Shown one piece after another: positions 24,412 to 32,730 of a DNA stretch of 64,000 nucleotides (positions are counted from its first letter, which is position 1; every line of letters starts with the position of its first letter). Under the pieces are notes generated by a model that was not told where the DNA came from, made no database searches, and saw only the letters and a list, made by a program, of their open reading frames with translations. The stretch is from Halobacteriovorax marinus SJ (GTDB lineage: Bacteria > Bdellovibrionota > Bacteriovoracia > Bacteriovoracales > Bacteriovoracaceae): positions 2,790,001 through 2,854,000 of the forward strand of contig NC_016620.1 in NCBI RefSeq assembly GCF_000210915.2, given 5' to 3'. The position numbers and the translations under genes are program-made.

Positions 24412-25110
24412 TTATTTTAATCCAACTGCATTCTTTGCCTTAGAAAATAGTTTATCTCCAATAGCAAAACCAACAGATACACCTACAGAATAATCATGTA
24501 ATTTATCAGGAGTATCTCCTTTAAATTCGAGAATTCTATTATTCTTTAAATAGTCCCCTTCTGTTTTTCTATATTTAGTATAAGATCCAAAAACCTTATA
24601 GCTAATAGACTCAACCCATGATGAACTCTGAGTGTATTGCTTAAATTGAACTCCTAGCTTTCCTCCATAGCCCCATGACTCATGAGAATTGTCCTCTGTT
24701 TTTCCAGTTGTTAAGTCAGTAAACTTTGCAGAGTTATCCGCCGAAGTATGATTATAAAAAACTCCCGCAAACGGTGCCCAAGACCAAGTTCCACTTTCTG
24801 AGTAAATATGGTACTTAAGTGTCGGCCCTACACTCACTGAGTGCCAATTGTAGTCATCCCCATTAGCGCTTTGAAGATAAGAAAAATTAAAGTCTTTTTG
24901 TCTTCCTATAGAATACATTGTATCTAGAGAGAAATCCCAGTTTACCCACTGATGACCAAGAGAAGCTTCTGTTAAAAAAGACTGACTTGATTTGTAAGAC
25001 TTAGAATCACCTTTAAGCTGCTTGTGAAGAACTCCACCTGAGAGCTCTAAGTAACCTCCAGCCCATGAGGGTAGTGAAAATAGTAGTAGTGTTAACGATA
25101 AATATTTCAT
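24412..25110 (-). CDS. outer-membrane beta-barrel-like exported protein
   Basis: A 232-residue protein with a signal peptide (LTLLLFSLPSWAGG) and alternating aromatic/polar strands of a small outer-membrane barrel (SLDTMYSIG, SVGPTLKYHIYSES, YGGKLGVQFKQY, YSVGVSVGFAIG). It is close to no family I can name. It lies just upstream of, and divergent from, the NarL-type regulator; the intervening 102 bases hold that gene's promoter and the shared motif at 25161. Confidence 0.65.
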   Translation of the reverse strand: MKYLSLTLLLFSLPSWAGGYLELSGGVLHKQLKGDSKSYKSSQSFLTEASLGHQWVNWDFSLDTMYSIGRQKDFNFSYLQSANGDDYNWHSVSVGPTLKYHIYSESGTWSWAPFAGVFYNHTSADNSAKFTDLTTGKTEDNSHESWGYGGKLGVQFKQYTQSSSWVESISYKVFGSYTKYRKTEGDYLKNNRILEFKGDTPDKLHDYSVGVSVGFAIGDKLFSKAKNAVGLK

Positions 25111-25160
25111 ATAAACCTCCGTTTTATTCTTCTATTCTCCCTCCATATTAAAGTTTTTTG

Positions 25161-25206
25161 ATGTGTCAAAATGTCACATTTTCAAGCTCTGAATAAGTGA
25201 TATAAT
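25161..25206 (+). promoter_or_regulatory. promoter region and operator-like motif of the response-regulator gene
   Basis: The consensus TATAAT (25201-25206) is followed by exactly six bases and the ATG, so the message should be leaderless. There is no good -35 hexamer. Instead the motif ATGTGTCAAAATGTCACAT (25161-25179) lies in the activator position. A close copy stands before the kinase gene (27743-27759). Confidence 0.7.
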
Positions 25207-25212
25207 CTCTTT

Positions 25213-25842
25213 ATGAACCTATTAATCGTAGAAGATGAAAAAGTTTTATTGGATAAGTACAGTGACTACCTAAAGGAAGTATTCTCTTCAATAAGAACAG
25301 CTAGAAGTAAAGAAGATGCCTTTCAACTTATTGAAGAGCACGAATTTGATGTGGCGTTAATTGACTACAACCTTCCCGACGGCAAGGGCCTAGATATACT
25401 TAGGGAATACCCTAAAAATGGTGATGCCCCAGTTTTTATAATGCTCACTGCTTACTCCAAGGAAAGACTTGCTATAGAGTGTTTAAATATTGGAGTCTAT
25501 AAATATTTAGAAAAGCCAATTGATAAAAAAGAACTTATTCATACTTTAATTGAAGCTAGAGAAGAGGCTTCAAATAGGGATACAATAAGAAGTTTGAAAA
25601 GAAAATTTACTATTTCTGAAAGAGTTGCAAATGTGCTCGTTGAAAAGTATCAAATTTCAAATAGAGAGCTAGAAGTACTAAAGTCTATTATTATACATGG
25701 TAAGAATAAGATTGTGGCCGAAAAACTATTTATTAGCCAAGGGACAGTAAGGAACCACTTAAGCAATATTTTCCAAAAAGTACATGTAAATACAAAAGAG
25801 CAACTTAATGGATTAATTGAAGATCTTAACTCAAAGAATTAG
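25213..25842 (+). CDS. NarL/LuxR-type response regulator
   Basis: A 209-residue regulator. The receiver domain (1-120) has the acidic pair VEDE, the phospho-Asp in ALIDYNLP, Thr in MLTAY and Lys in LEKPID. A LuxR-type HTH follows (about 145-205; SNRELEVLKSIIIHG, IAEKLFISQGTVRNHLSNIF pattern). Its likely partner is the convergent kinase at 25826-27718, whose 3' end overlaps it by 17 bases. It has no ribosome site and a TATAAT six bases before ATG. Confidence 0.92.
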   Translation: MNLLIVEDEKVLLDKYSDYLKEVFSSIRTARSKEDAFQLIEEHEFDVALIDYNLPDGKGLDILREYPKNGDAPVFIMLTAYSKERLAIECLNIGVYKYLEKPIDKKELIHTLIEAREEASNRDTIRSLKRKFTISERVANVLVEKYQISNRELEVLKSIIIHGKNKIVAEKLFISQGTVRNHLSNIFQKVHVNTKEQLNGLIEDLNSKN

Positions 25843-27718
25843 TCTTCCTAGGAATTTTGAAAGTGAAACAATTAAGCCCATCAGAATGTGAATAGAGCAA
25901 ATCTCCACCAATACTTTTGGCCACGTCTTGAGCAATAGCGATTCCCATCCCTCTTCCAATTCCTTCCTTACTTGAGTAGAGACTATCGAATATCTTATGA
26001 GACTCTTCTATGGCTCCTCCCTCATTAGAGATTTTAATGTAAATACTATCTTCTACTTGCTCAATAGAGACTTCAATCTTCTTTGAAGTACTTTTGTGGC
26101 TTACTATATATTCAATAGCATTATCTAATATATTAGAGATTGCTCCAAGTAATTCAGTTTTTGATGCATAAATAGCATACTTCGCATTTTCGTTATCAAA
26201 GTTAAGATTAATATTAACTTCAGCACTACTGGCCATTGAATCATACATGGAAACTAAGTCTTTTATCATCGCCCTTAAGGAGATCTCCTCTTTGACTGAA
26301 AGATTATTTCGAGACCCTAACTTTCCCGCAACAACTTTTAATCTCTCAAGAGCATGAGAAGCTTTTTCAAGTTCATTCTTTGCGAGATGAAAATCTTTTG
26401 ATTTTAAGAAATTCTCTGCATCATCTAAACAATACATCAAAATGGCCAAGGGATTTTTAAGTTCATGGGCCATCTTAGCAGAATACTCTCCTAGCTCACT
26501 CACCTTCCTCATCCTCTGTATGGAATCTAAAAGCTTAATCTTCTCCTCTTCAATTTCTCTTTGTTTTATAATATATTCGTTAAGCTCTGTACTCATTTCA
26601 TTGAAGGCCAACATCACTTGACCTATCTCATTTTTTGGAATTTTACTGTCAATTCTCTTTGAAAAATCACCTTTCCCAACAAGAATTGCTCTATCTTGTA
26701 ACACTTTTAGTTGAGGGAAAATTCTTAAAAATAAAATACACATTATTAGTAAGATAAAAACACCAATAATAATGACTGAAGTAACTACAATTCGAAGTCT
26801 ATCGGCTCTCTCTCTCGTTTCTAGATCTAGCTGTATTTCACGAAAACTTTGCCAACTAGGCACAAGGTGGGTATTGAGATGATGTGAAACTTCATTCTTT
26901 ATGGATTTTATCTCAGCTTCAATGCTCTCTTTAGTACTTAAAGTTCTTTCTATTTGGAACTTTATACTCTGTAGATTTTCAAAACTTCTTATCAAATGAC
27001 TTTTTAATTTTTCATTTAACTTTGTAGATTTTATTTTCTCAAAGGCTCCAGTAAATTTACTTTTTAAGTTTACATCCCTAGTTTGCTCAAAATTTTTCCA
27101 ACTGATTAGCCAATCCGAGAAATCCATTAACTCTTTCAACTCTTGAAATTTCTCCTGTTGCACATAGGAAATATCTAAAGAATTACGGACCTTTTCAAAA
27201 AATGGTATATCCTGTGCCCACTTTGAAAGAGTCGTCTTGAAACCTGGTAGAAACTCTTGCCCATTCTTCATTCGAGTAACAATTTCAGTACTCAATTTCT
27301 TTTCAATTTCATCCCATGTTTGTTTCTCTACAATCGACTCTTTATTCAATCGCTCTCTACTTAGAAGTAAACTTCTATTTAGAACTTTCATTCGATCTAA
27401 TTTCTTCTTAGGGTGAGAGAGCTTTAGCTCACTTAACTCATCAGTCTCTGCGATCTGCATATAACTATTATTTAAGTCATTTAAGGTAGAGCTAACCTCC
27501 TTCATACTATTAAGAGGAAAACTTGAAATTAATTTATACTTAGAAATATAATTTACAATCAAAAGACTTTTCTCAAGATCCTTTTTTGATCTTTGCCAAT
27601 CTTCTTCGATTTGGTCTTGCCCATCGTTAAGAATAAAGCCAACTCCACCTAATAAGACTGAAATAATTAAAAATGTAAGTAAAAGAAATGTTGAGCGTAG
27701 TCCCATAGAGATCATCAT
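25826..27718 (-). CDS. HAMP-containing sensor histidine kinase
   Basis: A 630-residue inner-membrane kinase. TM1 is near residues 6-26, with a large periplasmic helical domain to about 300 (four-helix-bundle style, no small-ligand motif). TM2 is about 302-325, then HAMP, then HisKA with His418 in MAHELKNP, then the ATPase domain with N-box (ISNILDNAIEY) and G-box (GIGRGMGIAIA). Likely signals to the response regulator at 25213; the two 3' ends overlap by 17 bases, an unusual convergent layout for a pair. Start ATG 27718 (GTGAG upstream) or the next ATG. Confidence 0.9.
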   Translation of the reverse strand: MMISMGLRSTFLLLTFLIISVLLGGVGFILNDGQDQIEEDWQRSKKDLEKSLLIVNYISKYKLISSFPLNSMKEVSSTLNDLNNSYMQIAETDELSELKLSHPKKKLDRMKVLNRSLLLSRERLNKESIVEKQTWDEIEKKLSTEIVTRMKNGQEFLPGFKTTLSKWAQDIPFFEKVRNSLDISYVQQEKFQELKELMDFSDWLISWKNFEQTRDVNLKSKFTGAFEKIKSTKLNEKLKSHLIRSFENLQSIKFQIERTLSTKESIEAEIKSIKNEVSHHLNTHLVPSWQSFREIQLDLETRERADRLRIVVTSVIIIGVFILLIMCILFLRIFPQLKVLQDRAILVGKGDFSKRIDSKIPKNEIGQVMLAFNEMSTELNEYIIKQREIEEEKIKLLDSIQRMRKVSELGEYSAKMAHELKNPLAILMYCLDDAENFLKSKDFHLAKNELEKASHALERLKVVAGKLGSRNNLSVKEEISLRAMIKDLVSMYDSMASSAEVNINLNFDNENAKYAIYASKTELLGAISNILDNAIEYIVSHKSTSKKIEVSIEQVEDSIYIKISNEGGAIEESHKIFDSLYSSKEGIGRGMGIAIAQDVAKSIGGDLLYSHSDGLNCFTFKIPRKTNSLS

Positions 27719-27742
27719 ATCTCACTTTACATCTAAAGGCCT

Positions 27743-27759
27743 ATGTCAATTTGACACAT
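27743..27759. promoter_or_regulatory. operator-like motif upstream of the kinase gene
   Basis: Read on the minus strand, ATGTGTCAAATTGACAT shares its first ten bases with the motif before the response-regulator gene (25161-25170). It includes a perfect TGTCAA-T-TTGACA inverted repeat. It is 25 bases before the kinase start. Confidence 0.65.
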
Positions 27760-27770
27760 TTTTAGAAGAA

Positions 27771-28358
27771 TTATGGTGTATTTTCGGTGCTAGATTGCTC
27801 ACCTTGCCCAGAGTAGATAACACCTCGACTCGTAAAGACGTATGACTTTCCATAGGCACCCGATGATGTCATTACCGCTTCAAATATTGGAGGTATTATT
27901 TTATCTTTTGAAGAGAAGATTACAATGAAGTTAGCACCAGAGCCTCCCTCAACATCACTTCTTTGAACAAAGACTTCTCTTGTTTCTAGAGGAGCAAGGG
28001 TAACTCCCTCTTTAAAATAACTTCTAATTAGATTACCTGAAGTATTATAATATAGAACTTTTTCTATTTGTAATGAGTTCTTTAAATCTATATTCCTAAG
28101 ACTTAAGGTAATGGCCATTGGTAAGCTCTCACCTTTTGACTCATAAATATTTGAGTATGCAGGAACATAACTATAGATCAATTTCTTATCGCTATTTAAT
28201 TTAAAAGACTTTGAGATATCTTCATTAAGCCCTTCAACGACTTCGTAAGAAACACTATAAGATTTCGAAGGTTGTAAATACTGTGAAAAGTTTTTTGCAA
28301 GAAAAACAAGAGTAATCATACTTATAACTATAGATATTGTTTTTACTTTCTCTAACAT
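27771..28358 (-). CDS. DUF3124-family protein
   Basis: A 195-residue protein with a membrane segment or uncleaved signal near the N-terminus (about 8-22). A DUF3124-like domain follows: SYVPAYSNIYESKGESLPMAITLSLRNIDL, a strand VLYYNTSGNLIRSYF, and GGSGANFIVIF near the end. Function unknown. ATG 28358 has AGAGGA. It precedes the kinase gene on the same strand and may be expressed with it, but the motif at 27743 lies between them. Confidence 0.8.
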   Translation of the reverse strand: MLEKVKTISIVISMITLVFLAKNFSQYLQPSKSYSVSYEVVEGLNEDISKSFKLNSDKKLIYSYVPAYSNIYESKGESLPMAITLSLRNIDLKNSLQIEKVLYYNTSGNLIRSYFKEGVTLAPLETREVFVQRSDVEGGSGANFIVIFSSKDKIIPPIFEAVMTSSGAYGKSYVFTSRGVIYSGQGEQSSTENTP

Positions 28359-30498: not shown

Positions 30499-32730
30499 TT
30501 ATTTAATATCAAAGCGATCGAGCTGCATAACTTTTGACCACGCTTTAACAAAATCTCTTGCAAATTTATATTTAGCATCATCAGAAGCATAGACTTCTGC
30601 AATGGCCCTTAATTCCGCATGAGAACCAAATACTAAATCAACAGGTGTTCCTGTCCAAAGAACTTTCCCCGACTTTCTTTCAACTCCATTGTAAATTCCA
30701 GGAGTATTTGACTTTTCCCACTTTGTTCTCATATCGAGAAGATTTACAAAGAAATCATTCGAAAGAAGCCCAGGTCTCTTAGTAAAAACTCCATGCTTTA
30801 CTCCATTAGTATTAGCATCTAAAGATCTCAAACCACCAATAAGTACCGTCATCTCTGGAACTGTTAGAGAGAGCATATTTGCTTTATCAACTAACATATA
30901 AGTAGGAGTTCTCATCGTTTCTTCTGTAAAGTAGTTTCTAAATCCATCTGCTAGTGGCTCAAGAACACCAAATGACTTCACATCAGTTTGTGCTTGAGTA
31001 GCATCCATTCTACCAAGCTTATATGGAACACTAATTCCTTTATAGCCTGCTTTTCTTGCAGAATCTTCAATAGCAGCTGCCCCACCAAGTACGATAACGT
31101 CAGCAAAAGAAACTTTCTTTCCACCAACTAAAGTACCATTAAACTCTTCATGAACTTCTCTAAGCTTTGCTAATACTTTTGTAAGCTCTTCAGGGTTATT
31201 CACTTTCCAATTTCTTTGTGGAAGTAAGCTTACTCTGGCACCGTTAGCACCTCCGCGCATATCAGTTCCTCTAAATGAAGCCGCTGATGCCCACGCAGTT
31301 CTAACTAGCTCTTGATTTGTAAGTCCTGATCTTAAAATAGATCTTTTTAAAGAAGCTACTTCTGATTTATTAATTAGCTTATGATTTCTTCTTGGAATAG
31401 GATCTTGCCAAGAAAGAATCTCCTTAGGCTTATCTTTACCTAGGTATCTCGCCAATGGCCCCATATCTCTATGAGTAAGTTTAAACCATGCTTTAGCAAA
31501 TGCTCTTTCAAACTCTTTAGGATTCTTTCTAAAACGAGTTGTGATCTCTCTATAAATAGGATCTCTCTTTAATGCCAGGTCAGTTGTAAACATGATTGGC
31601 GCATGTCTCTTTCCTTCAATGTGAGCATCAGGAACTAGATTTGATGCATTCTCATCTTCAGGAACCCACTGAATTGCCCCAGCAGGACTCTTAGTTTGTT
31701 TCCAAGTAAATGCATAGAGATTATCTAAATACTGTGTCGTCCAAAGTGTTGGTGTTGCTGTCCATGCACCTTCAAGACCGGAAGTAATTGTATCTTCACT
31801 ATGACCTTTACCACACTTATTGATCCAACCTTCGCCTTGCTTTTCAATACTCTCAGAACCTGGGTCTTTTCCGACACACTCTTCTACTTTATGAGCACCG
31901 TGGGCCTTACCAAAAGTATGTCCACCAGCAATTAACGCCGCTGTCTCTTCATCATCCATTGCCATTCTTCCAAATGTCTCTCTAATATCTTTTGCTGCTA
32001 ATAGAGGATCTGGTACCCCATTTGGCCCCTCAGGATTAACATAGATAAGACCCATTTGAACTGCAGCCAATGGTCTTTCAAGCTTTCTATCACCTTCGTA
32101 TCTCTTATCATCTAACCACTTAGTCTCTGGTCCCCAATATACTAGATCTGCTTCCCAATCATCTGTACGTCCACCGGCAAAACCAAATGTTTTAAATCCC
32201 ATGTCTTCAAGAGAAACATTTCCTGTTAAGACCATTAGATCGGCCCATGAAATTTTCTTTCCGTACTTTTTCTTGATTGGCCAAAGGAGTCTTCGCGCCT
32301 TATCTAAGTTTGCATTGTCCGGCCAACTATTAAGTGGTTCAAATCTCTGTTGTCCACCTCCGGCGCCACCTCGTCCGTCCATAACTCTATACGTACCAGC
32401 ACTATGCCAGGCCATCCTAATGAAGAAAGGACCGTAATGACCATAATCTGCTGGCCACCAATCCTGAGATGTTGTTAAAACTTTTCTAATATCTGCTTTA
32501 ACAGCATCTAGGTTTAATTTTTTGAATTCCTTAGCATAGTTAAATCTCTTGTCCATTGGACTTGATTCTTTAGCATGCTGTCTTAGAGGGCTTAGATTAA
32601 TCTGGTCAGGCCACCAAAATCTATTTGGCTTTGCTTCCCCTACTCCAAAATGGGAATCCATTTTCTTTTCAGGCGTAGAGCAACCTACTACTGAAAGTAG
32701 AGTGGCCATCAAGACGATTCTTGATTTCAT
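30499..32730 (-). CDS. katG: catalase-peroxidase with a lipoprotein signal
   Basis: Haem enzyme removing hydrogen peroxide. The 743-residue protein has the two fused peroxidase-like halves. The active residues are Arg105, Trp108 and His109 (distal), the crosslink partners Tyr230 and Met256, and proximal His271; these sit one residue off the M. tuberculosis numbers. The unusual part is the N-terminus: [16 protein letters not shown], a lipobox with Cys17, so the enzyme should be lipidated and outside the cytoplasm. ATG 32730 has AAGGAG. Upstream are four palindromes (32797-32864). Confidence 0.95.

Follow-up and report, generated by a model that had tools for sequence, protein, structure and literature searches.

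Genes and paired sites of the locus

The response regulator (RR) and sensor histidine kinase (HK) genes considered here converge, overlap by 17 bp and cannot share an operon. The initial annotation of the window (the whole stretch of 64,000 nucleotides that was analysed) pointed to a motif shared by the regions upstream of both genes, and proposed that a regulator binding both copies, most naturally the NarL-type RR itself, couples the two. Neither the outer-membrane protein gene on the far side of the first site nor the -10 boxes at fixed spacing figured in that annotation. The genes and sites concerned are the following:

24412-25110, minus strand: outer-membrane beta-barrel protein (OMP) gene, divergent from the RR gene
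25161-25179, plus strand: operator A, ATGTGTCAAAATGTCACAT, a 19-bp near-palindrome (ATGTGTCA-AAA-TGTCACAT) between the divergent RR and OMP genes
25213-25842, plus strand: RR gene, receiver and GerE/LuxR-type helix-turn-helix (HTH), NarL/FixJ type
25826-27706, minus strand: HK gene, HAMP and HATPase_c, convergent with the RR gene
27741-27759, minus strand: operator B, ATGTGTCA-AAT-TGACATAG, preceding the HK gene

The motif was found before both genes, as ATGTGTCAAAATGTCACAT (25161-25179, plus strand) and ATGTGTCAAATTGACAT (27743-27759, minus strand), and the ten leading bases, ATGTGTCAAA, are indeed identical between the two sites. A better frame for the unit is 19 bp of the form ATRTGNCA-N3-TGNCAYAT, by which site B becomes 27741-27759. 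Site A ends 33 nt before the RR ATG (25213), while site B, within the gap between the HK gene and a DUF3124 gene, stands at the similar distance of 34 nt from the HK because the HK start was moved from the listed 27718 to 27706, following alignment with four orthologues. The gene for the DUF3124 protein (27771-28358, minus strand) is located directly upstream of the HK gene, in the same direction. Both sites are rare. The 10-mer ATGTGTCAAA occurs twice in the 64-kb window against 0.15 copies expected (one of 100 shuffles reaches two), and the core TGTGTCAAAWTG likewise twice against 0.01 (none of 100). Across the genome (two contigs, 3,437,906 bases) the core is present in exactly two copies, sites A and B, and its reversed control in none. 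A background count over 293,992 bases including the window gave two matches of at least 18.5, the same number as the window's own two sites, and one more that reached 13.

The RR matches Response_reg (1.8e-22) and GerE (5.7e-12), both above cut-off, and its phospho-acceptor D51, acidic pair E7/D8, T79 and K101 are invariant in all nine aligned sequences. In the HK the HATPase_c match (1.9e-13) is above cut-off and the HisKA match, at 17.4 bits, falls short of the 26.9 required; H414, a putative phospho-histidine in an HE-KNP string, is invariant in 5/5 aligned sequences, and the structural model is mostly helical outside the ATPase domain, at low confidence (pLDDT 70.9, pTM 0.40). The HK orthologue of one relative (G088) is without the stretch that holds HAMP in the window's HK, a stretch which the other three aligned HKs have. 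The OMP model (pLDDT 85.6) is a beta-barrel with some eight strands, and its structure matches include OmpW/OmpX/Ail-type barrels at TM-scores of about 0.4-0.6. Elsewhere in the window (30499-32730, minus strand) a catalase-peroxidase-like protein carries, by eye, an apparent lipoprotein signal (LLSVVGCS) at its N-terminus.

Distribution of the cassette and conservation of the operator

When 129 family genomes were searched with the RR, nine gave a match at E <= 1e-24, six of which are orthologues: that of the present genome (G000) and five at about 50% RR identity. No RR orthologue was found in any of four same-genus genomes, and none beyond the six in searches of the class (which, like the family, comprised 129 genomes) or the phylum (368 genomes); a scan of genome contigs with the RR returned one unrelated receiver only. 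The arrangement of RR and HK convergent, with the OMP divergent beside the RR, is found in 6 of the 129 family genomes, and the OMP in seven, namely the six with the RR and G093, where the match is a fragment (residues 145-228) in an incomplete genome whose sequence breaks off there. OMP, RR and HK co-occur in the same six genomes and therefore appear to behave as a patchily distributed cassette. The HK is complete in five of the six cassettes, the contig of G086 ending within the gene, and these five HKs were scanned for a site. An envelope gene of ~350 aa is part of the cassette in G030, G085 and G086 and is present in 26/129 family genomes. Separate copies in the present genome and in G088 were considered as targets and rejected, no nearby site scoring above 12.3.

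On the RR side the motif is present before all six orthologues, between RR and OMP. The operators, ATGTGTCAAAATGTCACAT, ATGTGCCAAAATGTCATAT, ATGTGTCATAATGTCATAT, ATGTGCCGAAATGGCATAT, ATGTGTCGAAATGTCACAT and ATGTGTCAAAAAGTCACAG, have half-sites near ATRTGNCA with three bases between, and their mean pairwise identity is 84% as against 33-34% in the 20 nt to each side. The exact consensus ATGTGYCRNAATGNCAYAT was found in 5/129 family genomes, each time only at the RR of the cassette, and in none of the 123 family genomes without the RR; since the consensus was derived from the RR sites themselves, the informative part is its absence elsewhere. The operator of G088 is a version with two mismatches.

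The HK side is less uniform. The 150 nt upstream of each HK were scanned with a matrix built from the RR sites alone, with 2000 shuffles each. Sites were found directly before three of the five HKs, in the present genome (score 19.7, 0/2000 shuffles), in G085 (18.5, 0/2000) and, as a weak site, in G088 (13.2, 2/2000). No site was found in the 150 nt directly before the HK of G030 (3.7, 388/2000) or that of G095 (-4.7, 1963/2000). In G030 a site scoring 21.5 is instead placed before an envelope gene, after which the ~350-aa gene and then the HK follow co-directionally with short gaps. This site may serve the HK from the head of an operon, but reaches no better than E = 0.5 in the 46-position profile search described below. 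The proposed coupling of the convergent genes through a shared operator thus gains from the conservation in orthologues, but an HK site appears to be absent in G095 and at best indirect in G030. The RR site and the HK site of G085 alike read GCC...GGC, against GTC...GWC in the present genome, which would fit a joint drift of operator pairs, although these are two cases only. The HK coding region of G030 contains an operator-like sequence, CTCTGCCAAAATGTCACAT, with a score of 20.5 (L062:3175-3193; C69:41674-41692).

Predicted promoters facing the operators

In the RR, HK and OMP directions alike, a hexamer resembling a -10 box is located 20-22 nt from the operator edge. Those of the window are:

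25134-25139, minus strand: predicted -10 box of the OMP, GAGAAT, 21 nt from operator A on its other side; weak alone, significant over six orthologues
25201-25206, plus strand: predicted -10 box of the RR, TATAAT, 21 nt from operator A and 6 nt before the RR ATG; recovered by a consensus scan too
27714-27719, minus strand: predicted -10 box of the HK, TATGAT, 21 nt from operator B and 7 nt before the corrected ATG

The corresponding hexamers are TATAAT (three times), TATTAT and TAAAAT for five of the six RRs, TATGAT (twice) and TACGAT for three HKs, and GAGAAT, CATAAT, CAGAAT (twice), CACTAT and GACAAT for the six OMPs. With 15 promoters pooled (the RRs of G085 and G086 included, the operon head of G030 left out), none of 1000 shuffles reached the score at this spacing or in any other window; taken by gene, the score was reached in some window by 0 (RR), 1 (HK) and 15 (OMP) of 1000 shuffles. 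A -35 box sought at 16-18 nt is matched on average in 2.93 of its 6 bases, compared with a background of 2.66 over all positions. A weak -35 is possible in the RR promoters of G000 and G030 (TTTTCA, 4 of 6, at 16-nt spacing), and the HK of G088, which has the weakest operator, has TTGATA as its -35 match. The operator centre falls at about -43 (-42 to -44, usual numbering) from the predicted transcription start. Activator-dependent promoters of the class II type have an activator site near -41.5 and a -10 box but a poor -35; the promoters described here may be of this kind, with a poor -35 and a predicted centre at -42 to -44 as counted from starts predicted from sequence.

As the start codons follow the -10 box by 6-9 nt in the RR and HK of G000 and G088, the RR of G030 and G095 and the HK of G085, the RR and HK mRNAs are probably leaderless or nearly leaderless. 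The RR of G095 was read by eye (start 32 nt past the operator and 6 nt past the -10 box). The OMP starts 21-27 nt after its -10 in five of the six genomes, which leaves room for a leader of ordinary length, and 51 nt after it in G085. Departures are seen on the RR side as well. In G085 only 1 nt separates the RR ATG from the -10 candidate at 21 nt. The RR ATG of G086 follows the operator by 14 nt; a GAGGAGG ribosome-binding sequence is present there but a usable -10 is not, and this RR consequently cannot use the common geometry. On the OMP side of G030 the sequence TGGCAC-N5-CTGCTT was noticed by eye (L062:4482-4527), which we take to resemble a sigma-54 -24/-12 pair; the window has no such sequence.

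The putative regulator, its mode of action and its reach

The RR is a likely binder, as the initial annotation had assumed, since operator and RR co-occur, the operator being found only with this RR among the family genomes, and since NHLSN is the recognition-helix string in all six RRs. In its place three paralogues (28-32% identical) have RHLEN or RHWQN, and the stretches fetched for them hold no operator site scoring above 10.9. With the RR as query, 32 matches were obtained in this genome, which points to many other response regulators, and the identity of the binder consequently rests on the co-occurrence. We consider it probable that the phosphorylated RR activates its own gene, that of the OMP and, in most genomes, that of the HK through the 19-bp operator. 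Upon phosphorylation an RR dimer would bind with its centre near -43, immediately ahead of a promoter whose -10 box lacks a good -35 partner, and would thereby activate that promoter. Operator A would feed two back-to-back promoters, that of the RR (positive feedback) and that of the OMP (output), and operator B would act likewise on the HK promoter. RR and HK may in this way be raised together, because operator B would serve the HK as operator A serves the RR.

Three other readings were weighed against this one. That sites A and B are chance look-alikes seems extremely improbable: by our own estimate from composition a genome this large would hold roughly one or two copies of the core 12-mer, but both genomic copies are placed 33-34 nt before two partner genes, and site and spacing are kept where the proteins are only about 50% identical, a degree of conservation that refutes this reading. 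It is also quite unlikely that the sites belong to some other regulator, such as one of the CRP/FNR type, and that the two-component genes are merely its targets. The outline ATGTG...CACAT looks like a CRP site, but such a site is TGTGA-N6-TCACA, that is TGTG-N8-CACA, where site A has TGTG-N9-CACA, and a global regulator should leave sites elsewhere, while the exact consensus is confined to this RR in 5/129 genomes, with none in the 123 lacking it. The N9 spacing and this absence elsewhere speak against a CRP-like operator, and that reading was rejected.

An unlikely but more substantial reading is that the RR binds the sites and represses, as an autorepressor that covers the DNA immediately ahead of the promoter core and that phosphorylation relieves or switches. 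A site spanning roughly -52 to -34 would be able to block the polymerase too, and the operator of G086, 14 nt before the RR ATG, occupies a repressor-like position there. Against this, the -35 matches are at chance level (2.93 vs 2.66), so that the promoters look activator-dependent, and the 20-22 nt spacing is fixed in three directions, as is typical of activator-polymerase contact. Because of this fixed spacing and the poor -35 boxes, activation by the RR is favoured over repression.

The suggestion that the motif may mark a wider regulon was not borne out, as the present genome has no more matches beyond the cassette than chance would give. Allowing up to three mismatches to the consensus, 2-9 matches per genome are found in 18/18 genomes, with the RR or without. 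A profile of 46 positions was built from 13 promoters (the RRs of G085 and G086 and the operon head of G030 left out). Across 16 genomes it gave 14 places below E = 0.05. Thirteen are the training sites, whose match is built in, and the remaining one, G094:C20:160950 (E = 0.0105), belongs to a genome that lacks the RR; in the present genome nothing outside the cassette fell below E = 0.6. Given these loose matches, equally common without the RR, and a best outside profile match of E = 0.6, a genome-wide regulon is rejected for now. The best outside site here, C1:1257649-1257667 (L107:2150-2168), has two mismatches and is located between FliL-like and trypsin-like secreted protease genes. It is a candidate extra target with no convincing -10, the 21-nt place holding GTTTTC on the trypsin-like side and TATTTT on the FliL-like side. 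More tentatively than for activation itself, the system may be pictured as one symmetric operator with equal faces of 20-22 nt driving two divergent promoters and a second copy driving the convergent HK, with RR and HK expressed from leaderless mRNAs, and with its own parts and one OMP, in some relatives also one or two more envelope proteins, as the sole outputs.

Autoregulated two-component systems are common, and BvgA and FixJ are reportedly NarL/FixJ-family response regulators with autoregulated promoters. The present system is alike in its receiver and GerE HTH, its palindromic target and an activator site by the -10/-35 region; it differs in having an operator sequence of its own, convergent RR and HK genes each with a separate operator copy, and local targets. 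RcsB/RcsC of enterobacteria likewise pairs a NarL-type regulator with a convergent kinase gene, but here the operator is unrelated, the HK itself carries an operator, and no gene for a phosphotransfer protein is seen in the cassette. A general type of two-component system comes with a divergent outer-membrane target, neighbour and self being controlled via one intergenic site, as appears to be the case here; the distinguishing feature is the equal spacing (20-22 nt to each -10) on both operator faces. Positive autoregulation of two-component systems is well studied (PMC10368727). A search of open-licence papers showed no description of this cassette or operator, and no paper on both promoters and transcription starts in Halobacteriovorax, or on both genome and regulon in H. 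marinus, was found among them.

For this two-component system of a predatory-bacterium lineage, the analysis predicts an operator, the genes it targets and the geometry of their promoters. With targets that seem limited to the cassette, the system would be a clean test case of NarL-type positive feedback on a kinase encoded outside the regulator's operon, and it may help to establish when the outer-membrane barrel is produced.
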